Source: Deltaproteobacteria bacterium (GTDB lineage Bacteria > Myxococcota > B64-G9). Taken from it: a stretch of DNA of 64,000 nt. Location of the stretch: assembly GCA_019314375.1 (NCBI GenBank), contig JAFCZJ010000004.1:1-64000 (forward strand). Reading direction: 5' to 3'. A program made the position numbers and the translations under genes. Below are positions 8,591 to 35,137 of this stretch, one piece after another. The notes beneath the pieces were generated by a model. It ran no database searches, was not told the origin of the DNA, and was given only the letters and a program-made list of their open reading frames with translations. How positions within the stretch are numbered: the stretch's first letter is position 1; every line of letters starts with the position of its first letter.

Positions 8591-9277
8591 GTGAAAAAAT
8601 TCTCGATGCTGCTGGCTGTGCTGACCTTGATGGGGACGACTTCTTGGGCCACGGCTCAAGAGGAGGACGCTCGAACCCTCAGGGAACGCATCAAGAGTGT
8701 GTCCAATCGCTTATTCGACAAGAGCGGTCGGGTGGAATTGAGTTTGTTCCCCATGACCAGCTTGAGTTTGAATGATGCCTTCTACCAGAAGTTTGGTGGA
8801 GGTCTTTCGGCCGCCTATTTTTTCACTGAGTCGATGGGTGCCCAGGTCATGCTCACTTACAGCCTGAATGTGGAAACGTCGAATGCCGCATATTTCGGGC
8901 GAAAAGAAGAGTATGTGCCTTACGCCGGCAAGCGGAGCATTCTGGCCAACGCGGATTTCATTTGGGCTCCGTTATACGGCAAGATCAACTTGGCCTCCGA
9001 GTTTGTGATGCATTTTGATACCTACCTGATGATTGGGCTGGGCGTGCTGGGCTCCGAGCAGGTGGAAGGCTCCAACTTTGGTTTTGCGGGTGACGTGGGC
9101 TTGGGCCTGCGTTTTTTCTTCAGCCGCATGTTTGCCCTGAAGCTGGAGATCAAGGATTACATGGTCTTCAACGATGCGGTGAGCTTTCGCTCCCAAGAGG
9201 TAGCAGACGTGCAGCACCAATTGTATTTCAACCTGGGTCTGAGCATGTTCTTCCTGGGCGATGATGAGGAGGGCTGA
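8591..9277 (+). CDS. Outer-membrane beta-barrel protein, GltA/GltB-like
   Basis: About 228 residues from a GTG start (VKKFSMLLAVLTLMGTTSWA), which opens a normal signal peptide and has GAGAGG upstream; longer readings would bury the signal. The mature protein begins with a short helical RERIKSVSNRLFDKSGRVEL segment, then SLNDAFYQKFGGG and alternating beta-strands. It matches the myxobacterial outer-membrane barrel family (OMP_myx_plus). The next gene is a tandem paralogue sharing the KSV...K.GR.EL...SLNDAFYQK signature. In M. xanthus, GltA and GltB are such barrels, forming the outer-membrane part of the gliding apparatus with GltC. Which of the two this gene represents is unclear. Confidence 0.75.
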   Translation: MKKFSMLLAVLTLMGTTSWATAQEEDARTLRERIKSVSNRLFDKSGRVELSLFPMTSLSLNDAFYQKFGGGLSAAYFFTESMGAQVMLTYSLNVETSNAAYFGRKEEYVPYAGKRSILANADFIWAPLYGKINLASEFVMHFDTYLMIGLGVLGSEQVEGSNFGFAGDVGLGLRFFFSRMFALKLEIKDYMVFNDAVSFRSQEVADVQHQLYFNLGLSMFFLGDDEEG

Positions 9278-9281
9278 GACC

Positions 9282-10031
9282 ATGATCCAACGGCGAGCCA
9301 TTTGGAGTTTGGTCCTGGGTCTGGCCCTGTGTTTTGGTGTGCCCTCATCTGCTTTCGGGCAGGACAAGGCCGATAAGGCCGACAAAGCCAAGACCAGCAC
9401 CAAGGCCAAGGTCAACAAGGGGAAGAAAGCGGTAGAGGTGCAGGAGGATCGCATCAAGAGTGTGCAGCGCAAGGTTTTTCTCAAAGCCGGTCGCTGGGAG
9501 CTGCAGCCGACCTTTGCTCTTAGTTTGAATGATGCATTCTACCAGAAGATGGGCGGCGGGGCGTCGGTGGTCTACCACCCCGTGGACAACCTGGGCATCG
9601 AGTTTCATGGCGTGTATGTGGGCACCATCCAGACTGACATGGTGGGCTATTTCCAGCAGGCCAACGAGGCCCTGCCCAAGGTGTCGAACCTGCGCTACTA
9701 CTTGACGGGTGGGCTGCAGTGGTCGCCTCTGTATGGCAAGTTGAGTTTTGTCTCTGATGATATTGTGCATTTCGACGCCTATCTCTTGGCTGGCTTTGGT
9801 ATGGCCTACACGGAAACCGGTGCCAAGTTTGCCTCCTCCTTTGGCATCGGCCTGCGCTACTTTTTCAGCAGCTGGCTGGCAATCAAATTTGAAGTGCGTG
9901 ATCTGATCTACACCGAGACATTCCAGTTGGATGTTTCCCGCACCGAGTTTTCGGATATTCAGAACCACGTCATGTTCATGGCCGGCGTGGGCTTCTACCT
10001 GCCCACCAGTTTCGACTACCGCTACCAATAA
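9282..10031 (+). CDS. Outer-membrane beta-barrel protein, GltB/GltA-like paralogue
   Basis: About 249 residues. ATG 9282 follows GAGGAGGG four bases after the stop of the first barrel gene, so the two are translationally close. The signal peptide MIQRRAIWSLVLGLALCFG ends at SAFG-Q. A Lys/Ala-rich spacer (DKADKADKAKTSTKAKVNKG) follows, then the shared signature RIKSVQRKVFLKAGRWEL...SLNDAFYQKMGGG and an 8- to 10-strand barrel-like sequence. In M. xanthus the barrels GltA and GltB act with periplasmic GltC to couple the motor to the cell surface; the gene order here supports the same assignment. Confidence 0.75.
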   Translation: MIQRRAIWSLVLGLALCFGVPSSAFGQDKADKADKAKTSTKAKVNKGKKAVEVQEDRIKSVQRKVFLKAGRWELQPTFALSLNDAFYQKMGGGASVVYHPVDNLGIEFHGVYVGTIQTDMVGYFQQANEALPKVSNLRYYLTGGLQWSPLYGKLSFVSDDIVHFDAYLLAGFGMAYTETGAKFASSFGIGLRYFFSSWLAIKFEVRDLIYTETFQLDVSRTEFSDIQNHVMFMAGVGFYLPTSFDYRYQ

Positions 10032-10048
10032 AGGCCGGGAGAGAAGCG

Positions 10049-12082
10049 ATGAGAACCAGTGGCGTGAAATTGTTTTTGGTGGCCTGGGCGGTGGCTTTGT
10101 GGATGGTGTCGGGGATGCCCGGCTTGCATGTCTCCGGACTGGGCCAAGCCTGGGCCCAGGGTGACGATGACTTTGGCTTCGATTTCAGCGATGACGCAGC
10201 CAAAAAGAAAAAGAAAAAGAAAAAAAAGAAGAAGAAGAAGAAGAAAAAGGCTGGAAAGACTGGAAAAAAAGCCGCTCAGGATGATGACATGAGCATGGGC
10301 TTTGAAGGGCTGGACGTCTCGACCAAGAGTGTCGAGAAGGAGAATATGGACAAAGCCCTCGACTTGATGAAGGACGAGAAATACGCGGAAGCCTCGTCTT
10401 TGCTCTGGGATATCTACAACAACCCCAAGGCCAAGCAATTCTTCCAGAGTTCCGAGTACCAGATCGCCAAGGGTTTGTACCGCATGCGCATGTACCATTC
10501 TGCCCTGCGGCATTTCGGGAGGATTCTGGAGAAGGGTGTCGATCACAAGTACTTCAAGACTTCCCTCGAGTGGCTTTTCTTTATCAGCCACAAAATCACA
10601 GACCAGAAGGAAGTGCTGGGTTACATCGCTCGTTATTCGGACGTGGAATTCCCGAAAAAGTACAAAGACGAGTTTTTGTTTCTTTTGGCTAAGTACTTCT
10701 ATTTCCGAGGATTGGATCTTGAGGCAGAGAAGGTGCCCACAGCCAAGCCGGCGGCCAAACCGACCCCCAAGAAGCCGGAAGGCGACGAGATGGGTTTTGA
10801 TTTGGGCGGTGGTGGGGACTCGGGCGGGATGGATCTGGGTGGTGGAGATTCTACCGGCATGGATCTCGGTGCCGGGGGGATGGACTTGTCCGGCGGCAGC
10901 GGCATGGGTCTGGATTTGGGATCTTCCGACGACGGCTTCGAGTTGGACTTGGGCCAACAGAAAACCAGGGGTCCATCGGCTCTGCCGACGGACGTGGTGG
11001 GCATGCTGTCCAAGTCCAAGGCCTTGATTCTGCAGATAAGCGAGAAGAGCAAGTTTTCTGCTCAGGGCAAGTATCTGGAGGGCATCATCCTATACAAAGA
11101 GGGCGACTTCAAAGAATCAGTGGAAGCCTTCAAGATGGTGGTGCGCATTCTGCACCCGCAGACCGGTCAGTTTAGAAATGACAAATTACGGGAAATGGCC
11201 TTCTTTCAGTTGGCGCGCGTGCATTACGAACACAAGCAGTTCCGCTTCGCCATATTTTATTACGACCGCATCGACAGAGACAGCATCGGCTGGCTGGAGA
11301 GTCTTTTCGAGGCGAGTTGGGCTTGGTTCCGCTTGGGCAAATACCAAAATGCCCTGGGCAACCTGATTACCCTGGATAGTCCTTTCTTTCGGGAAGAGTA
11401 CTTCCCGGAGGGTCTGGTGCTCAAGGCGGTTACCTATTACGAGAATTGCCGCTATCCCGAGTCGAACCAGATCGTGAGCGAATTCCGCAAGCGCTACGAG
11501 CCCCTGCTGAAGGGCTTGAAAAAACTGACCGAAAAGAAACAGGCACCTGAGAGCTATTACAAAAAATTGTTATCCATCCAGAAGAGCCGTCCACGGGGTG
11601 CATCCGGGAAGCTGTTAAGGCGAATTCTCAAAGTCGCCCTGGCTGATGACAATCTGAAGTTGGTTAACGAATCGGTTCTGGAGATCGACAAGGAACTCAG
11701 GCGCATCAAGAAGCGAGCTACTTTCGTCAGGAGCAAGTTGGCGGTTCGATTGCTGGCTCAACTGCAGGAGCGGCGTACGCAGTTGGTTGTGACCGCCGGC
11801 AAGCTCACCAAGCGGCGCCTCAATCAGGAAAAACGCTTTTTGGGCAGCCTGATGAGCCAGGCCTTGCGCATCAAGCTGGAGAACGACAGCGCTGAGCTGG
11901 AGGTGCTCAAGAGGGCCAAAATCGGCGACATTGACTATGGACCGTCGCTTTTGACCTACGATTGGTCGGCGGCAACAGATGACGAGAAGATTTATTGGCC
12001 CTACGAGGGCGAATACTGGCGTGACGAGTTGGGTACCTATGAGTACACACTCACCTACGGTTGCCGCAAGCAGGTAGAGTAG
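10049..12082 (+). CDS. Periplasmic TPR-type gliding machinery protein, GltC-like
   Basis: About 677 residues. A long signal peptide ends near AWAQ (residue 35-36). A run of 16 lysines occupies residues 52-67, then an acidic stretch. TPR-like helical repeats come next (for instance AEASSLLWDIYNNPKAKQFF and IAKGLYRMRMYHSALRHFGR), interrupted by a Gly/Asp/Met-rich linker (about 245-305, GGMDLGGGDSTGMDL-like). More TPR-type helices and a long helical C-terminus follow, ending DYDWSAATDDEK-like. Position right after two barrel genes is the GltA/B-GltC arrangement of the M. xanthus second glt locus. GltC is thought to be the periplasmic partner of GltA/B. SD and start are normal. Confidence 0.75.
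   Translation: MRTSGVKLFLVAWAVALWMVSGMPGLHVSGLGQAWAQGDDDFGFDFSDDAAKKKKKKKKKKKKKKKKAGKTGKKAAQDDDMSMGFEGLDVSTKSVEKENMDKALDLMKDEKYAEASSLLWDIYNNPKAKQFFQSSEYQIAKGLYRMRMYHSALRHFGRILEKGVDHKYFKTSLEWLFFISHKITDQKEVLGYIARYSDVEFPKKYKDEFLFLLAKYFYFRGLDLEAEKVPTAKPAAKPTPKKPEGDEMGFDLGGGGDSGGMDLGGGDSTGMDLGAGGMDLSGGSGMGLDLGSSDDGFELDLGQQKTRGPSALPTDVVGMLSKSKALILQISEKSKFSAQGKYLEGIILYKEGDFKESVEAFKMVVRILHPQTGQFRNDKLREMAFFQLARVHYEHKQFRFAIFYYDRIDRDSIGWLESLFEASWAWFRLGKYQNALGNLITLDSPFFREEYFPEGLVLKAVTYYENCRYPESNQIVSEFRKRYEPLLKGLKKLTEKKQAPESYYKKLLSIQKSRPRGASGKLLRRILKVALADDNLKLVNESVLEIDKELRRIKKRATFVRSKLAVRLLAQLQERRTQLVVTAGKLTKRRLNQEKRFLGSLMSQALRIKLENDSAELEVLKRAKIGDIDYGPSLLTYDWSAATDDEKIYWPYEGEYWRDELGTYEYTLTYGCRKQVE
10202..10249 (+). 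repeat. Poly-lysine codon run (16 consecutive AAA/AAG)
   Basis: Sixteen lysine codons in a row (AAA and AAG mixed) inside the GltC-like gene, just after the signal peptide and an Asp-rich segment. Such an A-rich run is prone to replication or transcription slippage and may act as a flexible cell-wall or DNA/RNA-repelling spacer; function unknown. Confidence 0.9.
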
Positions 12083-12106: not shown

Positions 12107-15100
12107 ATGGTAAGGCGAATCGCTCTGTTGCTGGCTTTTGCGTTTCTGGGGACGGCCTGGTTGCCTTTGGGCGACTCTAAGGTTTGGGCTTTTACCACGG
12201 AAAAGAAAAAAGACGACAAGGTAAAAAAGAAAAAGACCAAGCCGAGTTTGGAATACCAGAAGCATCGTCGCATGCGCAAAGTCGACGTACAGATGGCAGA
12301 GAAGCGCAAGCTTATCCGTGAGCAGATTCTGACCCTCTTGGAATACGAAGAGGATCCCACGGAAAAGCCGGCCTTGCTGTTCCGCCTGGCGGAGAACTAC
12401 TTTGAAGAGTCCATGGCTGTTTTTTTCCAGGCCCAGGAACTCGACGACGAGTTGGCCAAGGATCCCACAAACAACAAAATTCGCAAGAAGGTAGCCAGAG
12501 GCAAGAAGGCCTTGCGAGCCATAGAGGTGAGTTGGCGGGAAAAGGCCATCGAGCTCTATAAGCAGATCGTCAACAATTACCCAAGATTTCCCGGCCGGGA
12601 TCAGGTCTTGTTTTCCCTGGGCTACTCTCTTTGGGATATTGAGAAGTACAAGGAAGCCCTGACTGTCTACAAAAGGATGATTCAGGACTACCCGAAAAGT
12701 CAGTACGTCCCGGACGCCTACCTGGCTTTCGGTGAGTTCTATTTTGAGAAAGCCAAGTTGGAGAGGGCCTTAATCGCATACAAGAAGGCGGCTGAATACA
12801 AGGAGAGCGAGATTTATCCATATGCCGTCTACAAGCAAGGCTGGTGTTATTTCAACCTGCATGAGTGGGACAAGGCCAAGGAGCAGTTCGAAGCGGTCGT
12901 CTTGTTGGCCGACATGGAATCGGCCACCACGGGGCGCAAGATTGAGATTCGCAAGGAAGCCCTGAATGATTACACCCTGACGTACAGCCACAAAGGCAGT
13001 GCCAAGGCAGCGCCTCGGCTATTTAAGCGTTTGGCACCCAAAGAGGCGCACAAGATGTTGATATCCCTGGCCAGCATGTATTTCGGCGACGGCCAGGACA
13101 AGAAGTCGGTCATCTTGTATCGCTATTTGATCAAGACGGAGAAGTGTTCGGCCGAGGTGCCGTTTTATCAAGGCCGCATCGTGGACGCTGCTTCCCGGGT
13201 GGGCAACAAGCGGTACGTGGTGGCCCAGACGCGACGATTGGTGGATCTTTTCAAAGAAGTGCAGCGATGCGTGAAGAGCCCTGATGCCAGGCAGAAAGAG
13301 CGAATCAAAGAGGGCAAGGAGTTGGCCGAGATTACCCTGCGCAAGCTTTCGTCGGTTTGGTACAAAGAGGCCAAGGAAACCAAACAAAAGAAAACCTTTG
13401 AGTACGCGCAAGAGATGTTTGGTGATTACTTAGAACTCTTCCCGAAATCCAAAGACGCTTACGATATGCGATTCGCATACGCGGAATTGCTTTTCCATCG
13501 CCTGGCGCGTTTTGAGCGGGCCGCTTCCGAGTACACCAAGTTGGTGGTTCAGGATCTGGCCTTCAAGAAAAAACATGGCAAATTTCCGCCCAAGCAGAAA
13601 GACCCCAAAAAGCAGGCCACTCCCGGTACTTACCTTTGCGATTCGGCCTACAAGGCCATGCAGGCCAATCGCGAGATCATGAAGAAAAAGAAGCGGAAGG
13701 CAAAGAGGAGTAAGCGGAAAAGCAGGAAGGCCCCAAAAGCCAAGAAGGATAAGAAGGGCAAAAAGATCGAGGGGATACCCATCCCCAAGTACAAGAAACG
13801 CTTCATTCAGTCCGCTGAAATTTACATGGACAACTGCCCGACCGACAAAGATATTTTGGATGTCAAATACGACATCGCCAAGACTTACTATGATTATTAC
13901 TACATCGATGAGGCAGTGAAGCGTTTCGATGAGATCGTAAGAGATTTTCCCAAAGCGGATCTGACCGTCTATGCGGCCAACCTGATACTGGATGCGTATT
14001 CTGAAAGGAAGGATTGGGAGGGGCTGAACAAGTACGCTCGTAAGTATTATCGCAACAAAAATTTAATGAAGAATGCCAAGTTGCGAAAAGATTTGAGCGA
14101 GCTCATTCCTCGCATCGCTTTCAAGCGTATCAACAAGCTTGAAGACTTGCTGCGTAAGCCCCCCAAGGGCAAAAAGCCCCTGAGCGACAAACGGATTTAC
14201 TCCAAGGTTGCCTACGCCTTCGTTAAATTCTACAAGGAATTTCCTGGCCACAGTTTGGCTGACGAAGCTTTGTTCAACGCCTCGGTTAAATACGAGCAAT
14301 CAGAGCGATTGGACAAGGCGCGCAAAGCGCGACAGTTGCTGATCGATAAGTACCCCAAGAGCGATTTGGTGCCTGGTGCCATCTTCAACTTAGCTGAAAA
14401 CTATGAACGCATGGCGGACTTCGATGCGGCCGCCAGCTTGTATGAGCGCTACGCGAACACCTACAAGAAGATGAAGGGCCTTGGAAAAGCGGTTTCCTAC
14501 CGGAAGACCAAACGTCGGCGCCGCAAGCGCAAGCGCAAACGCAAGCGCAAGCGCAAGGCCAAGGCCAAGGTCGAGAAGAAAGAAAAGAAGAACGTTGGCA
14601 ATCGGCGGACGTGGAACCTGGAGGACGCCCAGGCGGCTCTCCTCAACGCTGGCATCTACCGTGAGGCGTTGCGTCAATACGCAAAGGCCGCGAAGGACCG
14701 CCGGGAATTCGTGAAGTTGTTTCCCAACGCTGAAGACACGCCTCAGGTTTACTTCTCGCTTGGACTGCTCTATGAGAGCCGCAAGCAGTACACCAAGGCG
14801 GCGGCGATTTACAAAGAGTACGCCAAGAAATACCTTCGGAGCCACACGGACCAAGCCATCGCCGCTCACATGCGCAGGGCTGAAATGCTGCGCAAGGGGC
14901 GCAAGAGTCTTCGGCGGGAGAGCGACCGGGAAGTTCAGACCACGCTGGCCCTGTATCGAAAGTACAAGCGCCGCAAGAAACCCAAGGAGATGCGGAAAGC
15001 GGCTGAGGCGGCAGCTCACGCAGCGTTTATCTTGGCCGGGCCGACCTACAATACCTATATTCGGTATCGATTCACGGCCACCAAGGCAAAGAGACTCATG

Positions 15101-15787
15101 AAGCAGCTGGTCGAGAAGAAGAAACGATTGAAGAAGCTCACCAAGGCTTACGAGGAAGTAGCCAAGCGCAAGCAGCCGGAATGGGCGATTGCTTCTCTGT
15201 ATAAATTGGGCCGGGCTTATGAGGACTTCGCGCAGACTTTCTATAAGGCACCAATGCCCAAGGGCCTGACCCCCGAGCAGAAGGACATCTATATAGGGAT
15301 GTTGAGGGAGAAGGGCCAGCCGTGGGAAGACAAGGCGGTGGCTCATTTCAAGGCATCCGTGGACAAGGGTTCGGATCTTGGATTCTATAGCCGTTTTACC
15401 CAATTGGCCCTGAGTAAATTGCAGCACTATCGGCCTGCTGAGTACCCCCGAGAAGAGTTGGGTTTCAAGTTGGCGGTGGTGGCGGAATCCGCGGCCCGTG
15501 GGCCTTTGCTTCTGGCACTTTGGGATAAGGCCAAGCTGGATCCCAAGATGCTCAATGAACCGCCTCTTGTGACCAAGCGGATTAATGAACCCAGCGCGCC
15601 TCCTCCCAAGGTGGTTCCCGAGCCGGTAACGGACAAGTCCGGGCCTGCTGAAAAATCCGAAGGCAAGCCCGAGGCCAAGCCAGATGATAAGCAAAAGGCC
15701 CCGGCTGAAGAGAAAACGCCAAAGGAAATGGGCGATCCGCTCGATGGTGCGTTTAGTGACGATGAACCTGATGATGATTTCGATTGA
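12107..15787 (+). CDS. gltD: Large periplasmic TPR protein, GltD/AgmU-like
   Basis: About 1226 residues, beginning with a signal peptide MVRRIALLLAFAFLGTAW to about residue 28 and a Lys-rich start of the mature protein. Many TPR units follow (for instance AIELYKQIVNNYPRFPGRDQ, AYKKAAEYKESEIYPYAVYK, SLYERYANTYKKMKGLGKAV). Two strongly basic segments interrupt them near residues 525-560 and 800-830, the second almost pure Arg/Lys. The C-terminus is acidic (FSDDEPDDDFD). Size, TPR content and position before a TPR lipoprotein match AgmU/GltD, a periplasmic component required for A-motility in M. xanthus. A GGAGA ribosome site precedes ATG 12107. The next gene follows after 7 bases. Confidence 0.8.
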   Translation: MVRRIALLLAFAFLGTAWLPLGDSKVWAFTTEKKKDDKVKKKKTKPSLEYQKHRRMRKVDVQMAEKRKLIREQILTLLEYEEDPTEKPALLFRLAENYFEESMAVFFQAQELDDELAKDPTNNKIRKKVARGKKALRAIEVSWREKAIELYKQIVNNYPRFPGRDQVLFSLGYSLWDIEKYKEALTVYKRMIQDYPKSQYVPDAYLAFGEFYFEKAKLERALIAYKKAAEYKESEIYPYAVYKQGWCYFNLHEWDKAKEQFEAVVLLADMESATTGRKIEIRKEALNDYTLTYSHKGSAKAAPRLFKRLAPKEAHKMLISLASMYFGDGQDKKSVILYRYLIKTEKCSAEVPFYQGRIVDAASRVGNKRYVVAQTRRLVDLFKEVQRCVKSPDARQKERIKEGKELAEITLRKLSSVWYKEAKETKQKKTFEYAQEMFGDYLELFPKSKDAYDMRFAYAELLFHRLARFERAASEYTKLVVQDLAFKKKHGKFPPKQKDPKKQATPGTYLCDSAYKAMQANREIMKKKKRKAKRSKRKSRKAPKAKKDKKGKKIEGIPIPKYKKRFIQSAEIYMDNCPTDKDILDVKYDIAKTYYDYYYIDEAVKRFDEIVRDFPKADLTVYAANLILDAYSERKDWEGLNKYARKYYRNKNLMKNAKLRKDLSELIPRIAFKRINKLEDLLRKPPKGKKPLSDKRIYSKVAYAFVKFYKEFPGHSLADEALFNASVKYEQSERLDKARKARQLLIDKYPKSDLVPGAIFNLAENYERMADFDAAASLYERYANTYKKMKGLGKAVSYRKTKRRRRKRKRKRKRKRKAKAKVEKKEKKNVGNRRTWNLEDAQAALLNAGIYREALRQYAKAAKDRREFVKLFPNAEDTPQVYFSLGLLYESRKQYTKAAAIYKEYAKKYLRSHTDQAIAAHMRRAEMLRKGRKSLRRESDREVQTTLALYRKYKRRKKPKEMRKAAEAAAHAAFILAGPTYNTYIRYRFTATKAKRLMKQLVEKKKRLKKLTKAYEEVAKRKQPEWAIASLYKLGRAYEDFAQTFYKAPMPKGLTPEQKDIYIGMLREKGQPWEDKAVAHFKASVDKGSDLGFYSRFTQLALSKLQHYRPAEYPREELGFKLAVVAESAARGPLLLALWDKAKLDPKMLNEPPLVTKRINEPSAPPPKVVPEPVTDKSGPAEKSEGKPEAKPDDKQKAPAEEKTPKEMGDPLDGAFSDDEPDDDFD

Positions 15788-17659: not shown

Positions 17660-17935
17660 ATGAGGTCGAACCTTCGTAGTCGATGGTGGATGATTCTGGT
17701 CGTCGTGATGAGTTTGAGCCTTCTTGGTGCAGGTTTGGCCAGTGCGCAAGGTGATGACGGGGTCGTCTACAAGAAAAAGACGGTGTACAACTTTGCCGAT
17801 GACACTATCACGGGTGATCTTACCCGTCCGGATCAGGAGTTTCTCACTGGACGCAAGATGGCCAGGCACAAGAGCCTGATCCGCATCCGCGAGAACTTCA
17901 GGACCAAGGTTTTGCAGTCAGTTAAGGATTTGTAG
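17660..17935 (+). CDS. gltF: Small periplasmic gliding protein, GltF-like
   Basis: 91 residues with a signal peptide (MRSNLRSRWWMILVVVMSLS to about LASA-Q). The short mature part has the conserved-looking core VVYKKKTVYNFADDTITGDL followed by a basic helix RHKSLIRIRENFRTKVLQSV. A strong AAGGAGG (17646-17652) precedes the ATG. The assignment rests mainly on its size, export signal and position between the GltE- and GltG-like genes, as in M. xanthus. Similar short proteins also occur next to other FHA/TonB-tail proteins in myxobacteria. Confidence 0.7.
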   Translation: MRSNLRSRWWMILVVVMSLSLLGAGLASAQGDDGVVYKKKTVYNFADDTITGDLTRPDQEFLTGRKMARHKSLIRIRENFRTKVLQSVKDL

Positions 17936-17969
17936 TACCTCATGCAGTACTGAAGTGGAGGTTGGGCTT

Positions 17970-20069: not shown

Positions 20070-20079
20070 GATTCCCAAA

Positions 20080-20676
20080 ATGAAGCGCATCATCCCCATT
20101 GTCGTAGTGTTGGTTCTGGTCTTGGCTGGCCAAGCTTTGGCCGATGAGGCCAAGGGGGAACCCCGAATTCAGAAATTCCAAGAGGTGGAGCGCGGATTCT
20201 GGATGCGGACGACTCTTGGCGCGGCCCTCACCCTCGGTGACGTATTCGGCGACGGAGGCAAGGCGTCCATGCTGCCCGGGCCCCTGGTGACCCTCGAATT
20301 TGGTTATGATCTTGGACAGGTGGCATCATTGCACCTCTGTGTGATGGGTCAACAGATCATTGGCGTTCGAGAACTCACCAACAGGCCGGAAGTAAGCAAC
20401 GATGCCGGGGCCTTGGCCCTAATGGCCGGGGGGCGTTTCAACTTGGTCACCGGCAAACGCCTGGGATGGTTCATTAAGGCCCAGGTGGGTTACATGATTA
20501 CAGCCCCGGAAATGGCGGAATACCAGGCCGGCTTGTTGGTGCAAGGCGGGACGGGGCTTGAGTATGCCACCCAACTCAGGCATTTCTTCGTCGGCCTGGA
20601 GGTTTTTGGCCAATACGATCTGGCCAATTCAGGCATCGGCATCGGCTTAACCCCTACCTTGAAATATACGTTCTAG
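20080..20676 (+). CDS. gltH: Outer-membrane beta-barrel protein, GltH-like
   Basis: 198 residues: signal peptide MKRIIPIVVVLVLVLAGQALA, then a small barrel-like sequence of alternating strands. It ends in a C-terminal aromatic (LKYTF), the usual signal for BAM insertion. ERGFWMRTTLGAALTLGDVF recalls the CglE/GltH group of myxobacterial A-motility barrels. It starts 10 bases after the GltG-like gene, so it is in the same transcript. Position (between GltG- and GltI-like genes) is the same as gltH in M. xanthus. Confidence 0.7.
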   Translation: MKRIIPIVVVLVLVLAGQALADEAKGEPRIQKFQEVERGFWMRTTLGAALTLGDVFGDGGKASMLPGPLVTLEFGYDLGQVASLHLCVMGQQIIGVRELTNRPEVSNDAGALALMAGGRFNLVTGKRLGWFIKAQVGYMITAPEMAEYQAGLLVQGGTGLEYATQLRHFFVGLEVFGQYDLANSGIGIGLTPTLKYTF

Positions 20677-20734
20677 AGTTCCTCAACCCGGCAGGACTTT
20701 TCTATTCCAGTCAAGTGATCCAATAGGGTTTTCT

Positions 20735-20763
20735 TTGATTTCTCATTGGGGTTGGGGTATTAA
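20735..20763 (+). promoter_or_regulatory. Candidate internal promoter for the gltI-like gene
   Basis: TTGATT (20735-20740) and TATTAA (20758-20763) are spaced by 17 bases, within the 167-bp gap before the gltI-like gene. Four of six positions match consensus in each box. Just upstream of the start, CCTC (20817-20820) can pair with GAGG (20833-20836) of the ribosome site, so the leader may fold back on it. Confidence 0.4.
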
Positions 20764-20843
20764 AGCAGAGCATTAAAACCGGCACGATTGGGGCACGGGA
20801 GCCACCTGCCTCAAACCCTCCTTTTTAAGGGAGAGGATCCCCC

Positions 20844-26800: not shown

Positions 26801-29800
26801 GAAGGATGTGGCCCGGATACTGATTCAGGAGTTGGATAAGGTCGAGGATTGGAAGCACTTGATCGCCGCCTTAGAGTCAGTCTTCGACAACAGCGAAGAT
26901 TTGGACGAACGCAAGGCCGCCTTGCTCCGAATCGCTGGTGTCTACGAGCAACGTTTGGGGCAGAAGGAATTGGCCTTCAACGTGTTGGGGCGAGCATTCC
27001 AAGAGGACCCGACCGACGAGCGCATTCGGCAGGCCCTGGAGAGGCTGGCTGAAGAGACCGAAGAATTCGAAATGTTGGCTGCGGTATACTCCCGTCGACT
27101 CGACGGCCTGGATGACAAGACGGTGGTCTTGGGCATTCATAAGCGATTGGCGCGACTCGCGGAAGAGAGCTTGGGCGATCAGGACAGGGCCTTGGAGAGT
27201 TTGAAATCAGTCATCGTTTTGGACCCCGCGGACACTGACAGTCTGCTGGCCTTGGAGCGACTGTATCGAGCAAGACAAGAAACGGACGCACTGTGTGATG
27301 TGCTTGGGAAACGCGTGAAGCAAATCGATGATGATGCACAGGCATCGGCACTGCTTGGGGAAATCGCTTTGTTGCACGAACAACAGGGCGATTTTGGGGG
27401 TGCCATCAAGGCTTATCGGGACTTATTGGAGCGCCAGCCCGAGGACTTGAATGCCTTGCGTCAACTGGACCGTATGTGCGAACAGCAGGGCCGCCGTAAG
27501 GATCAGGCAGAGGTGCTGATTAAGATGATCGGCTTGCTTGATGCGGCGGGTCAGATCGAGGAGTCGCTGGACCTGCGTTTCCGTCTTGGCCAAATCTATG
27601 AGACTGAGTTCGAAGATCACGACCGGGCGATTCAGCTATACCGGGATATTTTGAAGGCCAATCCGATCCATGAATCCACGGCACAACATTTGGAGTCCAT
27701 GCTGGGAGACGGGCGTTCTTTCGATGGCGCGATCGACTTGCTACATGCTTCATGCGAGAGCACGGGGGATTGGAAAAAGTACTTGGATATTCTTGAGGGT
27801 CAGGTTCGCCAGAGCCGCGTCATGGCACGGCGCCTGGAGTTGATGGAGAAGATTGCCCTTGTCCAGGAAGACCAGATGGGCCTGGCATTCATGGCATTCA
27901 ATACTTGCGTCCGGATGTTTCATGAGGACCCAGCCAATGCCAGAACCAGGGAGCGACTCGAGCGACTCGCGGATAAAGACGACAACCTGGAGGCCTTGGC
28001 TGCGGTTTATGAAGAAGAATTGGACAACATCGAAGAGCCAGAAGTCGGCGCTTCCGTCGCGCTTAAAGTTGCGAAAATCCAGCGGGAACAACTTGAGGAT
28101 GAAGAGGAAGCGATTCGTTTCACTCGTGCAGCTTTGCGTTTTGAGCCACACAATCTGAAGGCGCTGGCGATCCTGGAGGCAACCTACGAAGAAGCTGAAA
28201 ACTGGGACGATCTGGTCGATATCCTGCAGAAGGAGATCGGCTTGGTTTCTGATGCCGAGGATCGGGTGCGGGTGTTTTTCAAGATGGGTACGATCTTGCT
28301 GGAGCGTCTGGAGCAGGCCAGCAAATCCGTGGGCTATTTCAGGCAAGTGCTGGAAAACGATCCCGAGCACATCGACAGTTTGAAGTCCCTGGAGCGTGCA
28401 TTCGCACAGCAAGGCGAGCACGAGTCTTTGCACGAGGTGCTCAAGAGTCGACTCTCCTTGACCGTGGATCCCGCGGAGCGGATTGAGTTGGTGGCCCGGG
28501 TGGCCGATTTGGCGGCCGGTGTTTTGAATAATCCGGAAGAAGCGGTTGAGATGTGGCAGAAGATTCTGGAGGAGGACCCTGGCAGCGAGGACGCTTTTGA
28601 TGCCCTCGATCGCCTGTACGAACGGACTGAGCGCTGGGTGGACTTGGCCAGTTTGATCGATGGTCGAATGAAGAATACGGCTGATCCCGAGCTCATCGCA
28701 GAACTGTCGAGTCGACTGGGCTGGGTGAAAGGGGAAAAGCTAGGCGAGCTCGAAGAGGCCATGGAGAACTGGCAAGAGGTACTGCGCCTCGACCCGAAGA
28801 ACGCCGGTGCCTTGCAGGCGTTGCGCCGTATTTATGCATCCGGCGGCCAGTTTGAGAAATTGTTGGGCGTCTTACGCAAGCTTGTGCCCCTACAGGAGGA
28901 CATGATCGGGGTCAAGCAGATCCGTTTTGAACTGGCCGAGATTCTTGGTGAGAAACTGGAGCGTCGTGGCGAGGCCATCGAGGCAGCCAAGCGTGCTTTG
29001 GATATCGAGCCTCACAGTGCTGAAGAGTTGGGGCGTCTGGGGCGAATATTTGAGGCCAATGAAGCTTGGCAGGATGCAGTCATCGTTTTGGAGCAGAGCG
29101 CGGAGCAGGTGGAGGAGACGGAGCGCAAAGTTGAATTGCTGATACGGGTGGCTGGTTTGTGGAGAGACAAGATCGGCAAGGCCCTGGGGGCGGCGCCCGC
29201 CTACGAGAAGATCCTTGGTCTTGACCAGTCCCATGAGGAGGCCTTTCGGGCCGCTCATGAGATTTATCTCGGCAGCAAGGAGTGGCGTCGGCTAACCCAA
29301 TTGCTTGAGACCCGGCTGACCTTCATTCGAGAACGTCGAGATCGGATGGAGTTGATCAAGGAGATCGCCAGCATTTTTGAGGAGCACCTCGGGCAGAAGG
29401 AAATGGCTTTCGCCAGATACTGCGCGGCTTTTCGAGAGGACTTCACCGATGATGAGGTGCTTGACAAGCTGGAGCACTTGGCGGAGGAAACTGAGGATTA
29501 TGACACCCTGTTAGAGGTTCTGGAGGATGCGACATCGGAGATTAGCGAAGGCCGCCGGGCCGTCGGACTGCTGCAGAAAATTGCGACCCTGTATCAGAAT
29601 CGTTTGGGGGAACCCGAGAAGGCTGAAGAATATTTGCGACGTGCGGTGCAACTGGACGTGGTGGATACCAGCTCTTTGGAGGCCTTGGCGGAGTTGCATG
29701 AGGAACGAGAGCAGTGGGAAGACCTGATTGGTGTATTGGAGAAAACATACGAGCGTAGTGATGAGTTGGAAGATCGCAAGCGTCTCCGTAGGCGAATCTC

Positions 29801-32800
29801 CATTTTGCAGGAAGATAAGCTTGGACGTGTGGATCTGGCGATCGAAAGCCTTCGGCGTATCCTGGAGTTGGATGGCCGAGACGGAGAGGCCATCCAGTCC
29901 CTGATGCGCCTGTATCAGTCAGAAGATCGCTTTGAGGATCTCATTTCCATTTTGCGTCGGGCGGCCGAGCAAGCCGAGGCAAGAGAGGATTCGGTTCAAT
30001 ACCTCTTCAATATTGCCACGGTTTGGGAAAGTGACTTGGATCTGGAAGAAGAGGCCATCGACGCTTACCGGGATGTGCTCGAATACGAATCTTCTCATTT
30101 GCCCAGTTTGCAGGCCCTCGAGCGTGTGTATACGCGATTGGATCGTTGGAGCGAACTGATCGGTGTCTTCGAGAAGCAGGTCGAACTGGTCGCTGGATTT
30201 GAGGAAAAGATCAAGGTTTTGACCAAGATGGGCAGTATCTGGGAAGAGCGATTCTCCAATATTGAAAACGCAGCTATTTGCCATGAACAGATTTTGGATC
30301 TGGACTCGAAACACTTGTCTTCCATCAAGGCCCTCGAGCGATTGGTCCAGCGAATGGGAGATTACAGCCAGCTCATCGATTTGTACTACAGGCACATTGA
30401 CCTGGTGGATGAGCAGCAGGAGATCGTTGATATCCATTTGGCCATCGGCGAGGTTTGGTATCGAGAGTTGAGTCGGGTCGACAAGGCCGAGGATGTGTTT
30501 ACCCGGGCCCTGGAGATCGATGATCAATCTCGGGAGGCCATGCACGCCCTCGGACAACTTTATGAAAAGAGCGGCAACTGGTTCAACGCCATCGAAATGT
30601 TGTCGAAGGAGGCCGAGATATGCGGCACCACGGCGGAGGCTGTGGATTTGTTTTACCGCATGGGCAAGATCAACGAAGACATGTTGCTGGATGCACAGGC
30701 CGCCAGGGACGGTTATACAAGAGCGCTTGCCATCGACCCTTCGTATCTCCCCGCGGTCAAGGCCCTCAAACTCATCCATTATCTGGATAAGGAATACGAA
30801 CAATACCTGGAGATGATGATTCAGGAGGCGGAGCATACGGAAGACGTTGAAGAGAAGACCCGTCTCTTCTACGAGATCGGTAAATTTCTACAAGAGCAAC
30901 AGGACAAGCCGGCGGAGGCTGCACGATACTACGAAGAGGCTTTGCATCTTACGGCGGACTATTTGCTTGCAGCCAAGCCCCTGGCCGACATCTACTTCCG
31001 CTCGGAGCAATGGGAAGAGGCCGAACAGATGATGGAGGTGGTGGTTGCTGGTTTGGACCGCAACTCCGAGGCCAGAGAGCTTTGTCGCCAGTACTATCGT
31101 CTGGGCTACATCACGGAAAAACTGAGCAAAGAGGATAGGGCTCTGGAGCATTACCGGATGTCCTACGAATTGGATGCCACCTACTTGCCGGCCCTTGAGG
31201 GTTTGGGCAATGCCTTGATAAAGACCGAGCAGTGGGAGGATGCATACCGGATTTATCAGACCATTTTGATCCACCACCGGGACAGTCTGTCGGATGCGGA
31301 AGTGGCAGAGCTTTACTGGCAGCTGGGTGATGTGAATTTCCATATGTCGGAGACCGAAAGAGCCATCCAGTCTTTCGAGAAAGCCTTAGAGATTGATGAA
31401 GGGCATTTGGCGTCCTTGCAGTATCTTGTGCGGATTCATGAGCAAGAGGCCAACTGGGAAGAGTCATATGATTACGGTATGCAGATGGTCGATTCGCTCG
31501 ATGAGGATGAGTTGTTCGATCACTATCTGCGCTTAGGCGACCTCTGTCGTGCGCAGTTGGAGGACCCATTCAGGGCCGTGGACGTATTGCAGAGCGCGAT
31601 GCGCTTAGAGCCGGAGAACCTGGCGGTGCTGACCCGCCTATTGGATGTATACCGGGACACCAACCAGAACGGCAAAGCGGTGGATATTCTGGAGCGCCTC
31701 GTTCAGGTGGAGGGGCGTCCCAGCAAATTGGTGGAATACCATATCTTGGCAGCTGATCTGTTGAGAAGCGAAGTGCGGGATGATATGCGCGCCGTAGATC
31801 ACTACAACACGGCGCTGGGCATTGACCCTTCCAGCATCGGCAAGGCTTTTCAGCCAATCATCGAAATTCTCCGTAAACGCAAGGATTGGCCGGCGCTCAA
31901 AGATAACTACATTCACATGATCAAGCGCTTACCCGTCGAAGCCCGAAAGACCAAGCTCGTTTTGTGGAAGGACTTGGGTGAGTTGTGTCGCGTCGTGTTG
32001 CGCAACCTCAATGAGTCTATCGATGCCTATCGCATGATCACCAAGTTGGACCCTGATGACACAGATGCCCTGGGCGTTCTGGGCGATCTTTTGGCTGCCA
32101 AGCAGGGAGGGGATGATGAGGCCGCGATTGTTCATCATCAAGTGGTGGCTCAGCATCCGGATCGCATCAAGAGCTATCGTTCTCTGTGGAAGATTTACAA
32201 CAGCCGCAAGGATTACGACAAGGTGTATATGATTACGTCAGTCTTGCGGTATTTGAAGAAGGCGGATGAGGAAGAGCAGAAGATTGTTCACTACTTCGGC
32301 AAGAAGGCACCGGCCATAGAGGGAGCGCGGCCCATTTCCGATGGCTTGTGGGCCAAGTTGTTGGCCCACCCTGATGCCAAGGTGCCTTTTACTCGCATCT
32401 TTGGGGTCATGTACAACATGGCGGCACCGATGTTCATCCGCGAACACAAAGAACTGGGCCTTAAGCGCAAAGAACATCAGATCGATTTGGCGCGCGATCG
32501 GCGGCTGTTCACCCACTCCTTCCGTATCGCGGCCAAGGTGATGGGCGGTCCGCCGGTGGAGTTGTTTGCCTTCAAGGATCAGGCTTCACCGTCTCCGGAT
32601 ATCCCAGGGCTTAGGGTAGGCCCGACAAGGCCCACCTCTATCGTGGCTTACCGGGACATGTTTGCCGCAGACAAAAAGAAGCCCCTGCTGTTCTATTGCG
32701 GCAGACAGCTGGCCATGACCCGACCGGAGTTCATCCTGGTGTCTATTTTGCCCAAGCCCTTGCTCGAATTGAACCACTTGCTGCAGGCGGCCTGTCTGCT

Positions 32801-33158
32801 CGTAAATCCCAAGTACCAGGCCGCGGATTTGGCGGAGGCCCAGGCCCGAGCCAGGAAGTTGAAGCGAGCCCTGGATGAAAAGGGCTTCGGCATTCTCCGC
32901 AGCGCCGTCTCGGAGTATTTGAAAAGTCCGAAAGAATACAACTTGAAACGCTGGGTTGAGTCCGTTGAGCACTCGGTCAATCGAGCGGGATTCGTGGTCT
33001 GTAATGATATTTCGGTTGCTTTGGGGATTTTGAGGCGAGAAAAGGGCTGGATGAGTCCCATGCGTCCTGTTACCAAGGCAATGGAGTTGTTGAAGTTTGC
33101 TTCCAGCCCGGATTACTTCAAAATCAGGGAAGTGATGGGGCTGAAGGTAGATGCCTGA
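20844..33158 (+). CDS. gltI: Giant cytoplasmic TPR protein, GltI/AgmK-like (4104 aa)
   Basis: The protein begins MEEQIRNYQKILKANPVDGP, with no signal peptide or membrane helix, so it is cytoplasmic. Nearly the whole length (about 1-3780) is TPR-like helix pairs with recurring phrases such as RIAEIYERQLDEPERAFVAL, ALERLYREEGSF and LLERMAEIHDGKREDPVAAF; dozens of units are visible. The C-terminal 300 residues form a different, non-repetitive domain (AHPDAKVPFTRIFGVMYNMA, RPEFILVSILPKPLLELNHL). In M. xanthus GltI/AgmK is a very large cytoplasmic TPR protein of the gliding complex; neighbours and architecture agree. GGGAGAGG precedes the ATG. Composition resembles its neighbours, with no sign of a frameshift. 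Confidence 0.8.
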   Translation: MEEQIRNYQKILKANPVDGPAFNALEEIYQGQDRWRDLVGMYDNRLQQAQDMTQLKALLEKCGNVWFQKLGDLPKAKANYEQLLRLQPENRAALGGLEAVFSKRGDHKLLADVLEQQAVATEDSVERADLYTRLGHLYLEKIKRRDKALVAWGHALAADAKRIDVVEALGSVYLDFASFGKVLELLDRERELGVADDQLLGGRYLDLGRRLLEEPLKEDTCRQALSSASELLEDKTEIQKLLDELESNKANWEKRIKFLRVAAVEAPDKGRAVDLYRQIAEIYFLQGGHEKEVEDNLDKCALLQAGNPRLLSFIEQYYLQRRKPKEMLDRLNTVSTRIKEPRVATDLLERIAMLTAVHLQDRKASIEAYQRILKIDAGHSSAVASLVEYHQEEGRWAEVVDLLKAQVDRQIEPRAKAEALLQIAQITAEQLKDPEASQFMYEEILRLDSGNQAAAQALARIYEKAKDFNGLIQCLEILVEQTHDLNERITLLERMAEIHDGKREDPVAAFKTWMLVLSIDAGRKKVLKEVLALGEKTGRFQELAAALQLIVAKKAIEGKALLEVMTILAQTYETRLNQPDLASKVYQDILDVDESNMPALDALERLQGASGGSVELIGIYSKQLELVRSGEKKKELLFKLATIFQDRMADFKQAIDAYNQILELDDKEPMAWAKLAELYEQDGQWAKATEALEQSLSGTSDPERVLGNKYKLASIYEQRLNDTERALLLCSEILAIDQVPPQLAADTVTILERLQGRGVSPLRIAEILQPYYALSGDWRRHIDMLELRLEGCASPEERVQLLQRVAQVYEDELDQRELAFGAIGRAFRQLPEDEELLQQLSRLAAETGHIEDLALTVEQAMERSDDPDLVVSLSRMLAGLYRDQLKRPQNAMACLQRILGYVPDDRESLVGLTDLFADMQSWHEMVDVLRKRIEGSEDEAERKELMKRLAQVTEEELHDRPSAVAIFEQLHEEAGDQLDVLEALSVLLEKEGRWPDLAEVLDKMVSLVPQDEASELNLKLGRVRAERMEDREHAVEHYRSALAEKPDDERAVEGLESLLGRPDSAPAAAEILVPIYEQRSDWAGLARALEVRADIATELNEQVELYKRIAEIYERQLDEPERAFVALRQAFRADSSSQELLQVMQRLAEKSNAYEQLTAALEEAVSQEGGEQEQQVFLLQSLATLYRDVLKRSDLAASSLRRLLDVLPEHAATLATLESMYRESKSYKDLAWVLEKQAKAASDNEVRRDLLVQVAQVREEQLGDLEGAVAAFQQVFEMDSDDLHAAKQLDRLFQATNRWSDAAELLPRLAELSKNVIGVIEYNSRLAEIYIDRLDDPRRAVQILNQILGTKANHPETVALLERLLADERCRLPAAEVLDGVYRSMAEWRKLAAILEMRLAGVTDTAERMVFYGHLKDLYENRIGESALAFNVAARAFREQPQDEGARKDLVRLAEQSDFFDELVSVYQDVADRHVGTDLALALRKQIAWIEERHLNKRAEAISQWEKLLETNEAEPEVLSALERLYREEGSFEKLVGIYQRQVDLTEDSDQKKALLFQTAAALAEGVEDIDGAVVIYQSLLDIDSEDRRALLLLDQLLSADHRWADLAPVLEKEIVLDSGEPSEGSEERQLELLLRLAFVQIEKLDQPEGALGTLKAALALKAVEPRAIAQLESMLTDASIRHHAAELLEPAYRLQKDYRKLVAIMEVRLAGQEDQTRRLGVYQDLMRIYEEELSQKPLSFMVACRAFRENIEDDGIRQELERLAQETGSFEELAAVYEEMLPSAEGAEVGTIIGRRLAQLNEAHLQDKDEAVSQWRQVLANDPDDMEALKSLERLYRERASFSELVGILLNMSAMEEDLDQKKDILHEVATLMEERLGRNDGAIDAYREMLSEDPGDLAVLKLLDRLLEREGRHEELREVLESEIQRAATSELVGLKLRYAQLHRMHLGDPEAAVKILAGILEEESGQADAIAALVEMFDAKEAKKDVARILIQELDKVEDWKHLIAALESVFDNSEDLDERKAALLRIAGVYEQRLGQKELAFNVLGRAFQEDPTDERIRQALERLAEETEEFEMLAAVYSRRLDGLDDKTVVLGIHKRLARLAEESLGDQDRALESLKSVIVLDPADTDSLLALERLYRARQETDALCDVLGKRVKQIDDDAQASALLGEIALLHEQQGDFGGAIKAYRDLLERQPEDLNALRQLDRMCEQQGRRKDQAEVLIKMIGLLDAAGQIEESLDLRFRLGQIYETEFEDHDRAIQLYRDILKANPIHESTAQHLESMLGDGRSFDGAIDLLHASCESTGDWKKYLDILEGQVRQSRVMARRLELMEKIALVQEDQMGLAFMAFNTCVRMFHEDPANARTRERLERLADKDDNLEALAAVYEEELDNIEEPEVGASVALKVAKIQREQLEDEEEAIRFTRAALRFEPHNLKALAILEATYEEAENWDDLVDILQKEIGLVSDAEDRVRVFFKMGTILLERLEQASKSVGYFRQVLENDPEHIDSLKSLERAFAQQGEHESLHEVLKSRLSLTVDPAERIELVARVADLAAGVLNNPEEAVEMWQKILEEDPGSEDAFDALDRLYERTERWVDLASLIDGRMKNTADPELIAELSSRLGWVKGEKLGELEEAMENWQEVLRLDPKNAGALQALRRIYASGGQFEKLLGVLRKLVPLQEDMIGVKQIRFELAEILGEKLERRGEAIEAAKRALDIEPHSAEELGRLGRIFEANEAWQDAVIVLEQSAEQVEETERKVELLIRVAGLWRDKIGKALGAAPAYEKILGLDQSHEEAFRAAHEIYLGSKEWRRLTQLLETRLTFIRERRDRMELIKEIASIFEEHLGQKEMAFARYCAAFREDFTDDEVLDKLEHLAEETEDYDTLLEVLEDATSEISEGRRAVGLLQKIATLYQNRLGEPEKAEEYLRRAVQLDVVDTSSLEALAELHEEREQWEDLIGVLEKTYERSDELEDRKRLRRRISILQEDKLGRVDLAIESLRRILELDGRDGEAIQSLMRLYQSEDRFEDLISILRRAAEQAEAREDSVQYLFNIATVWESDLDLEEEAIDAYRDVLEYESSHLPSLQALERVYTRLDRWSELIGVFEKQVELVAGFEEKIKVLTKMGSIWEERFSNIENAAICHEQILDLDSKHLSSIKALERLVQRMGDYSQLIDLYYRHIDLVDEQQEIVDIHLAIGEVWYRELSRVDKAEDVFTRALEIDDQSREAMHALGQLYEKSGNWFNAIEMLSKEAEICGTTAEAVDLFYRMGKINEDMLLDAQAARDGYTRALAIDPSYLPAVKALKLIHYLDKEYEQYLEMMIQEAEHTEDVEEKTRLFYEIGKFLQEQQDKPAEAARYYEEALHLTADYLLAAKPLADIYFRSEQWEEAEQMMEVVVAGLDRNSEARELCRQYYRLGYITEKLSKEDRALEHYRMSYELDATYLPALEGLGNALIKTEQWEDAYRIYQTILIHHRDSLSDAEVAELYWQLGDVNFHMSETERAIQSFEKALEIDEGHLASLQYLVRIHEQEANWEESYDYGMQMVDSLDEDELFDHYLRLGDLCRAQLEDPFRAVDVLQSAMRLEPENLAVLTRLLDVYRDTNQNGKAVDILERLVQVEGRPSKLVEYHILAADLLRSEVRDDMRAVDHYNTALGIDPSSIGKAFQPIIEILRKRKDWPALKDNYIHMIKRLPVEARKTKLVLWKDLGELCRVVLRNLNESIDAYRMITKLDPDDTDALGVLGDLLAAKQGGDDEAAIVHHQVVAQHPDRIKSYRSLWKIYNSRKDYDKVYMITSVLRYLKKADEEEQKIVHYFGKKAPAIEGARPISDGLWAKLLAHPDAKVPFTRIFGVMYNMAAPMFIREHKELGLKRKEHQIDLARDRRLFTHSFRIAAKVMGGPPVELFAFKDQASPSPDIPGLRVGPTRPTSIVAYRDMFAADKKKPLLFYCGRQLAMTRPEFILVSILPKPLLELNHLLQAACLLVNPKYQAADLAEAQARARKLKRALDEKGFGILRSAVSEYLKSPKEYNLKRWVESVEHSVNRAGFVVCNDISVALGILRREKGWMSPMRPVTKAMELLKFASSPDYFKIREVMGLKVDA

Positions 33159-33295
33159 GTGCCCTAAACTTGAGGCGGTTTTGACCTTATGGTACATAAG
33201 AAAATGCAAGATCTAGCCAACAGAGGCAGATCCTTAGGGGTGTTCGGACAGTCTAAGAAGTGTGAGATGGCGAAACCCCATACGGGACGGAAATC

Positions 33296-35137
33296 ATGAA
33301 GTTCGTTTGTGATCAGTGCTCGACTCAGTATTTGATCTCGGACGATAAGGTCGGTCCGAAGGGCGTCAAGGTCCGCTGTAAGCGCTGCGGCCATACCATT
33401 TTTGTCCACCCCGAAGAAGACGAATCGCCAGAGACCACTGATCCATCAGGGCTTTCCCTGGATGATGCCTCGGAGAAATCCCCCAATGAAGTAGGCCAGG
33501 CTTTTGATGATCTTCTTGCTGGTCAATTTGACGACGGGGACGATGAAGACGAAGACGAAGACGATGGACAGGCTACTGAGATTTTCCGTATGGACGATCT
33601 CCAGCGGTCCCGAGGCGAGGATGCCTCCGATGAAAATGATCAGTTGGATCGGGTTTTTGAGGACGCGGCTTCTTCCCGCGTGGAACAGCGGGATGTTAGC
33701 GAGTGGTATGCCGCGGTTGGTGATGAGCAAGTGGGCCCCATGCGCTTGGCCGAATTGGAGGAACGCTGGACCCGGGGTGAAATCGCTGCCGATTCGCTGG
33801 TTTGGCATTCCGGCATGGACGAGTGGATTGCCCTTCAGGATGTGGCAGAGCTGAAGTATTTGCTCGGAAGCTCTCAATCCAAAGGCGATTTTAGTGATAA
33901 AACCGATGTGGAGCCCTCTCCGAATGATGATGCGAGTGGGCAGGGTGGGGTCATCACCGAAGATGAAGATGCTTGGGTGTCTTCCCAGCGGAGTGATTTG
34001 GCCTCCCTGGTGGAAGAGGAAATTGCCGCGGTGGACCAGCCTCAAGAAAAGGAAGTCCCTGCGGAAAATGATCAGCCTTTCGATGGTCTGCCGAAGATGG
34101 AGGACGAGGGTGAGGTGCCTCCCTGGGAGCGGGACATGGTGGATTCGGGAGAAGTCGCCCGACCCTCTGACGACCTGTTCGATTCCACCCTTGATTCCAC
34201 AGGCGGCGATGGCGGAGCGAATTACTTTGGAGGTTTTGGGCGCGCCAGCAGTGCCTTGGGTGCGCCAGCTTACCTGGGAGGCGACGATCAGGGAGCCAAC
34301 AAGTGGAAGTGGCTCGCCATCGGTGGTGGAGGATTGGTCCTGTTGATTGTTGTGGCCCTTGGGCTTTTCTTCATGTTGAAGGATCCTGTGCCGGAGGCAG
34401 GGTCGGGACCAGGCGAAGCCATCAAGCCACCGGATGCGGGTCAGGTCGGTGACAAGGGCGACAAGAAAGACGAAGTAAAAGACGACAAGAAAGACGACAA
34501 GAAAGACGATAAGAAAGACGATAAGAAAGACGATAAGAAAGACGATAAGAAAGACGATAAGAAAGACGATAAGAAAGACGATAAGAAAGACGATAAGAAA
34601 GACGACAAGAAAGACGACAAGAAAGACGATAAGAAAGACGATAAAAAGGGAGATGGTCAGTTGGTGGTTGGCAAACCGACCAGCGATTCTTCTCCAAGTC
34701 GAGTCGATACAGGCAAGGACAAAAAGACTCATAGCTCAAAGAGAAAAAAGCGTAAACGGAAGAAAAGGGTTATCAAGAAACCTCGGCCCGACGTGGTCAA
34801 GAAGCCGGATCGAGGGACAGAGCCCGCCGCAGACAGCAAGTTGCCCCTGAAACCAAGCAAGAGTGGGATCATCGGCACAATGAAGAAATATCAGCGAGTT
34901 ATGAAAAGCTGTGTGGAGCAGCAGCAGCAGCGAGACCCTTCGGTGAAGGGGACCATGGTGGTCTCTTTTACCATTGAAAAGACCGGTAAGGTGAGTTCGG
35001 TCAGGGTGCTGACTTCCCAGCACAAGGGCTCCTATGTGGCAGGATGCTTGAGTCAGATCATTAAGGCCATGAAGTTTCCCAAGTTCAGCGGTCCCGCCTT
35101 CACGATCCCAAGGTTCCCCTTCAGACTTGGCGGTTGA
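33296..35137 (+). CDS. gltJ: Zinc-ribbon/GYF transmembrane protein with TonB-like tail, GltJ/AgmX-like
   Basis: 613 residues. An N-terminal MJ0042-type zinc ribbon has C5-x2-C8 and C28-x2-C31. An acidic linker precedes a GYF_2-type domain at about 136-185 (EWYAAVGDEQVGPMRLAELE). A second linker leads to one transmembrane helix near 337-361, then 14 copies of a Lys/Asp tetrad (396-451) and a basic stretch. A C-terminal AgmX/PglI TonB-like domain (about 525-613, GIIGTMKKYQRVMKSCVEQQ) closes the protein. The layout matches M. xanthus AgmX/GltJ, whose zinc finger and GYF part face the cytoplasm and contact MglA while the tail crosses the periplasm. It is the last gene of the glt block. The ribosome site is weak. 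Confidence 0.85.
   Translation: MKFVCDQCSTQYLISDDKVGPKGVKVRCKRCGHTIFVHPEEDESPETTDPSGLSLDDASEKSPNEVGQAFDDLLAGQFDDGDDEDEDEDDGQATEIFRMDDLQRSRGEDASDENDQLDRVFEDAASSRVEQRDVSEWYAAVGDEQVGPMRLAELEERWTRGEIAADSLVWHSGMDEWIALQDVAELKYLLGSSQSKGDFSDKTDVEPSPNDDASGQGGVITEDEDAWVSSQRSDLASLVEEEIAAVDQPQEKEVPAENDQPFDGLPKMEDEGEVPPWERDMVDSGEVARPSDDLFDSTLDSTGGDGGANYFGGFGRASSALGAPAYLGGDDQGANKWKWLAIGGGGLVLLIVVALGLFFMLKDPVPEAGSGPGEAIKPPDAGQVGDKGDKKDEVKDDKKDDKKDDKKDDKKDDKKDDKKDDKKDDKKDDKKDDKKDDKKDDKKDDKKDDKKGDGQLVVGKPTSDSSPSRVDTGKDKKTHSSKRKKRKRKKRVIKKPRPDVVKKPDRGTEPAADSKLPLKPSKSGIIGTMKKYQRVMKSCVEQQQQRDPSVKGTMVVSFTIEKTGKVSSVRVLTSQHKGSYVAGCLSQIIKAMKFPKFSGPAFTIPRFPFRLGG
34481..34648 (+). repeat. 14 tandem copies of a 12-bp unit (Asp-Asp-Lys-Lys)
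   Basis: The unit GACGAYAAGAAA is repeated 14 times with almost no change (GAC/GAT at the second Asp; AAAAAG in the last). It codes (DDKK)14 in the periplasmic linker of the GltJ-like protein directly after the membrane helix. Near-identity at DNA level points to recent expansion and likely length variation between strains. Confidence 0.95.

Follow-up and report, generated by a model that had tools for sequence, protein, structure and literature searches.

The window analysed here, a 64,000-nucleotide stretch (1-64000 of the 83,902-base contig C137), most probably carries at 7563-35137 a complete gltA-K gliding-transducer locus, which by sequence is orthologous to the M. xanthus clusters G1 and G2 taken together and probably keeps them in an ancestral one-block layout. 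Gene content, intact domains, orthology, and a motor and a switch in the same genome were observed. The locus is real and complete, and its layout is already known elsewhere, for example in Anaeromyxobacter. The find is of value because it extends the Agl-Glt gliding gene set, complete with gltH, gltI, gltJ and gltK, to an uncultured Myxococcota family that has the whole of gltA-K, and because of the comparison that it permits. The host genome (G000) is a draft of 6.66 Mb in 370 contigs, with a completeness of 97.6% and a contamination of 5.8%, and sister genomes of its own family hold the same clusters.

Gene content of the locus

The ten glt genes at 8591-35137 (gltA/B, C, D, E, F, G, H, I and J) are open, contiguous and on the same strand, and gltK lies upstream of them on the other strand. 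Both group B of the Glt transducer (the core genes gltC, D, E and G) and group A (gltA, B, F, H, I and J) are represented. The features are as follows.

7563-8339, minus strand: gltK (cglC) orthologue, Cys-rich outer-membrane lipoprotein with lipobox LLSNC, divergent from gltA/B
8591-9277, plus strand: first outer-membrane barrel of the gltA/gltB pair (OMP_myx_plus TIGR04565, 108 bits, cut-off 60)
9261-10031, plus strand: second outer-membrane barrel of the gltA/gltB pair (TIGR04565, 115 bits, cut-off 60); the start may be 9282
10049-12082, plus strand: gltC, periplasmic TPR protein (NF033756, 591 bits, cut-off 450; 35% identity to Myxococcus GltC)
12107-15787, plus strand: gltD (agmU), periplasmic TPR protein (Glt/G1 clade of the GltD tree, SH-aLRT 97)
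15795-17630, plus strand: gltE (aglT), TPR lipoprotein with lipobox LAAC (NF033758, 208 bits, cut-off 225)
17660-17935, plus strand: gltF (cglF), small exported protein of 91 aa between gltE and gltG (NF033764, 94 bits, cut-off 90)
17955-20069, plus strand: gltG (pglI), with FHA domain, transmembrane helix and TonB-like tail (NF033760, 604 bits, cut-off 650; myxo_SS_tail; Pfam FHA)
20080-20676, plus strand: gltH (cglE), outer-membrane barrel (NF033755, 121 bits, cut-off 70)
20844-33158, plus strand: gltI (agmK), giant cytoplasmic TPR protein of 4104 aa (TPR repeats; position, size, shared C-terminal domain)
33296-35137, plus strand: gltJ (agmX), with zinc ribbon, GYF domain, transmembrane helix and TonB-like tail (NF033761, 203 bits, cut-off 450; Zn_ribbon_4, GYF_2)
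34459-34648, plus strand: 12-base repeat in 15.9 copies, coding for a (DDKK)n linker in GltJ; the Myxococcus protein is rich in proline at this place

An earlier note on this DNA had read ten same-strand genes from GltA/B to GltJ in this order, and the open reading frames, the NCBIfam profiles and the GltD tree agreed with it. The note also called the block complete at 8591-35137; this held for gltA/B to gltJ, but gltK had been overlooked and the block starts on the 7563 side. An ORF upstream of the barrels and divergent from them (7563-8387, with its likely ATG at 8339) encodes a GltK candidate with a lipobox and the GltK cysteine pattern (IGxPC, a C..LICV motif and GYC.K.C). Myxococcus-type genomes likewise have gltK pointing away from gltB-gltA-gltC, the relatives G003 and G008 have gltK orthologues in the same place, and Anaeromyxobacter-type genomes have a shorter version. 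Since position, orientation, lipobox and cysteine pattern all concur, 7563-8339 was assigned as gltK; the block therefore begins before 8591 and holds the full gltA-K set. Against a joint profile of Anaeromyxobacter and Myxococcus sequences, the window GltK reached a probability of 98 and an E of 6e-13, the latter being for a single pair and not a database E-value. It had no match in NCBIfam or Pfam, and a direct search of G000 with a profile from three Myxococcus-type GltK sequences gave no match. Absence of gltK had been considered, and was overturned by the divergent upstream ORF and by bridging through the Anaeromyxobacter sequences.

Searches with profiles of the Glt proteins gave NCBIfam matches for GltC, E, F, G, H, J and both barrels. 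GltC, GltF (CglF), GltH (CglE) and the two barrels passed the curated cut-offs, GltG and GltE fell slightly under theirs and GltJ far under. The zinc ribbon, GYF and TonB-like domains of GltJ are intact, and this architecture is common to the relatives G004 and G005 and to Myxococcus G118. NCBIfam has no dedicated model for GltD or GltI; GltD was assigned from the tree, and GltI from its position, size (M. xanthus GltI has 4132 aa; PMC3169522) and a C-terminal domain in common with Myxococcus GltI. GltA and GltB could not be told apart by score, the second barrel scoring best with both Myxococcus proteins, and for GltE the start at 15795 is more likely than that at 15684. In all ten genes, the substitutions relative to the nearest relative were most frequent at third codon positions, followed by first and then second positions, indicating that selection maintains all ten. 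From the barrels through gltH the genes overlap or are separated by 8-30 bases, so this part is likely one operon; gltI and gltJ are preceded by longer gaps, of 168 and 138 bases. A promoter and terminator scan of 20000-36000 found sites no more frequently than in shuffles.

Elsewhere in the window, two small gene pairs at 58880-60230 (93/133 aa on the plus strand and 79/131 aa on the minus strand) look toxin-antitoxin-like by eye, with PIN-type toxins. Adjacent tRNA-Gly and tRNA-Cys genes lie at 42935-43086; an ORF listed at 43021-43725 shares bases with the tRNA-Cys gene and probably does not truly start where it is listed.

One block and two loci across Myxococcota

In M. xanthus the genes are divided between G1 (gltD-J, MXAN_4870-4862) and G2 (gltK, B, A, C, MXAN_2538-2541), with the motor genes aglRQS at a third place (M1, MXAN_6862-6860). 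The window locus resembles this system in having all eleven glt genes, the order C and D-E-F-G-H-I-J, a gltK that points away from the barrels and an aglRQS that stands alone at another place in the genome. It differs in being one block instead of two, in protein identities of about 25-52%, in a longer GltK, in the (DDKK)n linker of GltJ and in that no CglB was found in G000.

CglF matches were present in 176 of the 195 genomes of the phylum. Around CglF, blocks running from the barrels to gltJ were found in two genomes of the window's own family (G004 and G005) and in G013, G041, G056, G180, G182 and G194, and shorter linked blocks, some without gltI and gltJ, in other genomes. Five genomes of one family (G060, G104, G109, G118 and G144) have gltA-C not adjacent to gltD. 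We further took the best 80 GltC loci of named genomes, some of them short. Among these, gltD comes next after gltC in uncultured Myxococcota, in Anaeromyxobacter and in a record named Bdellovibrio. It does not do so in Myxococcus, Corallococcus, Pyxidicoccus, Archangium, Citreicoccus and their near relatives. M. xanthus AM003, a named record, has a gltK-A/B-C block without gltD, as in the Myxococcus reference genome G121. The two-locus split of M. xanthus, given in the earlier note, is real. That a single locus is remarkable was not supported: linked blocks are widespread, most of the families surveyed have the single block as their usual arrangement, and the grouping of G1 and G2 in Anaeromyxobacter was reported by Luciano et al. 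in 2011 (PMC3169522). Anaeromyxobacter is among the close likenesses, with a single block K'-A/B-C-D-E-F-G-H in A. terrae, A. soli, A. oryzae and A. oryzisoli and, in G030 and G041, an I-like gene next; however, it belongs to a different family and its GltK is shorter. In the relatives G003 and G004, gltF is in tandem duplicate (L053 and L055, near 10.1-10.5 kb; L215 and L219), and it is single in the window.

On the GltD tree the linkage states need two changes, one in the Myxococcaceae-type clade and one in G189. The sequences thus indicate that the split arose in Myxococcaceae/Archangiaceae and close kin, with at least one independent break besides. Because linkage is widespread, two changes on the GltD tree are sufficient and Anaeromyxobacter offers a precedent, the single block appears ordinary and probably ancestral. 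Read on a species tree without an outgroup root, it is probably the common, ancestral state and the Myxococcus two-locus layout a later exception; the survey indicates that the latter is derived. The earlier note had left open whether the block was ancestral or re-assembled. Secondary re-assembly from a split ancestor seems highly improbable to us: operons can re-form, and the species tree has no outgroup root, but the same order recurs in many distant families, in the record named Bdellovibrio and in the Nfs paralogue, and it is the split that needs the two changes. An ancestral block explains the survey better.

Glt identity and proposed function

The earlier note proposed either true gliding or an Nfs-like task. 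Among the glt proteins, trees were built for GltD only (56 sequences). Window GltD groups with the Myxococcus G1 protein in a clade of 31 Glt-locus sequences (SH-aLRT 97). The Nfs clade (SH-aLRT 100) is separate and contains the GltD of a cluster on contig C139 of G000. This second cluster (C139:21000-33000; L010, L011) is of Nfs type, with A, B, C, D, E, F, G and H and a second GltG-like protein and without I, J and K. The Myxococcus reference G121 was taken as near M. xanthus by family, gene order and AglR/Q/S lengths of 245/162/194 (compared with the table in PMC3169522). M. xanthus Nfs (nfsA-H, G3) likewise has a paralogous A-H set in one cluster; it differs from the window in its separate clade and in the absence of gltI, gltJ and gltK, which are missing from Bdellovibrio as well (PMC3169522) and are all present in the window. 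The expanded core clusters of Bdellovibrio (e.g., Bd0828-0838) also have Glt-like genes in one cluster, but are reported without gltH, I, J and K (PMC3169522). That the window cluster is itself an Nfs-type spore-coat machine is therefore hardly credible, even though Glt and Nfs are close paralogues with the A-H set in common (PMC3169522): the window lies in the Glt motility clade and G000 has its own Nfs-type cluster. An Nfs identity was rejected on the GltD tree and the gene content.

Further Glt-like genes occur in G000. A cluster on C258 (motor, G, B, A, C, D) is cut by the contig end. Another, at C139:51000-65000 (L174; also L176, L177 and L178), was found only in G000's family within the sample, and its GltD is sister to the G4 clade. 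On C231, a 2614 aa ORF (31084-38928; L012:11084-18928) has a weak internal CglF-like stretch, and a stand-alone GltG-like gene (L012:6179-7360) lies on the same contig.

Motor and switch lie outside the window. Contig C131 carries a stand-alone aglRQS, a TolQ/TolR/TolR trio of 219/156/198 aa, which groups with the Myxococcus motility motor M1 in the AglR tree (97/96). Its AglQ keeps Asp28, a residue whose change abolishes both motility and sporulation in M. xanthus (PMC3858216). mglBA is on contig C338, and its MglA has 83% and its MglB 69% identity to their Myxococcus counterparts. The separate Nfs-type cluster, the M1-orthologous aglRQS and mglBA favour gliding over spore-coat assembly for the window locus.

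In the published model, AglRQS uses the proton gradient to move a platform in the inner membrane, where AglR contacts GltG and GltJ acts as MglA effector; TPR proteins of the periplasm and TonB-like tails connect this platform to an outer-membrane module of GltA, B, C, H and K (PMC3169522, PMC3858216, PMC4488436, PMC12288465). A literature search for a link of the GltJ zinc finger or GYF domain with MglA had no match among open papers, and the MglA-GltJ link is taken from a review. By orthology, we infer that the products would assemble, be energised and support motility. The proton-driven AglRQS motor (C131) would contact GltG in the inner membrane, and MglA-GTP (C338) would engage the complex, with GltJ among its contacts. 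Force would cross the periplasm through GltD, GltE, GltF and the two TonB-like tails (GltG and GltJ) to an outer-membrane contact formed by GltA, GltB, GltC, GltH and GltK, and the cell would glide on surfaces. We know of no member of G000's family that has been seen gliding.

Several observations speak against a gliding locus. GltJ is far under its cut-off, and the draft genome is contaminated as given above. AglZ-like proteins occur in the relatives G003, G004 and G005, but none matched in the draft G000 (query, N-terminal 300 aa). The adhesin CglB had no match in G000, where a divergent copy could escape the search. This last result would also fit a true Glt orthologue used for non-locomotory surface transport, for example moving a polysaccharide or a prey-contact structure over the cell, and the M. 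xanthus Agl motor does drive two different transport machines (PMC3858216). However, gltI, J and K and the mglBA switch are present, and in M. xanthus this set is associated with motility. Furthermore, CglB is encoded outside gltA-K, and Anaeromyxobacter is also without it and has yet been proposed as a potential glider (PMC3169522). We thus regard such non-locomotory transport as unlikely, and gliding as the favoured function.

The mglBA-G4-M2 locus

In G000 and three other genomes (G005, G182 and G194; three families in all), a single locus combines mglB-mglA, G4-type C, D, E and G genes and an M2-type TolQ-TolR-TolR motor. In G000 (C338:32000-47000; L019, L103) the order is mglB, mglA, C, D, E, TolQ, TolR, TolR, G; the others are L181 (G005), L179 (G182) and L180 (G194). 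The C338 GltD belongs to the G4 clade (SH-aLRT 100) and the C338 motor groups with M2 in the AglR tree (98/97). In Myxococcus G121, G4 adjoins mglBA with no motor beside it, and M2 lies at a distance of 1.2 Mb. The G4 clade of GltD and the M2 clade of AglR comprise one and the same set of ten genomes. This co-occurrence and the single locus in four genomes from three families suggest that the orphan Myxococcus M2 motor drives the G4 machine.

Both gene sets were listed as of unknown function by Luciano et al. (PMC3169522), and MXAN_3003, the M2 AglR homologue, gave no two-hybrid signal with GltG or NfsG (PMC3858216); M2 and G4 locus tags were matched in the literature only in these two papers. 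M2-G4 is a concrete and testable pairing for them. There is perhaps an even chance that G000 displays the ancestral wiring of the whole class, and that G4 and M2 of Myxococcus are one dismembered third Agl-Glt-type machine, which MglA may originally have served as switch. An aglZ gene lies within about 11-19 kb of an M2-type motor in three genomes (L173/L169 in G121, 8.375-8.393 Mb in G060, and contig C32 in G056), of which two belong to Myxococcaceae.
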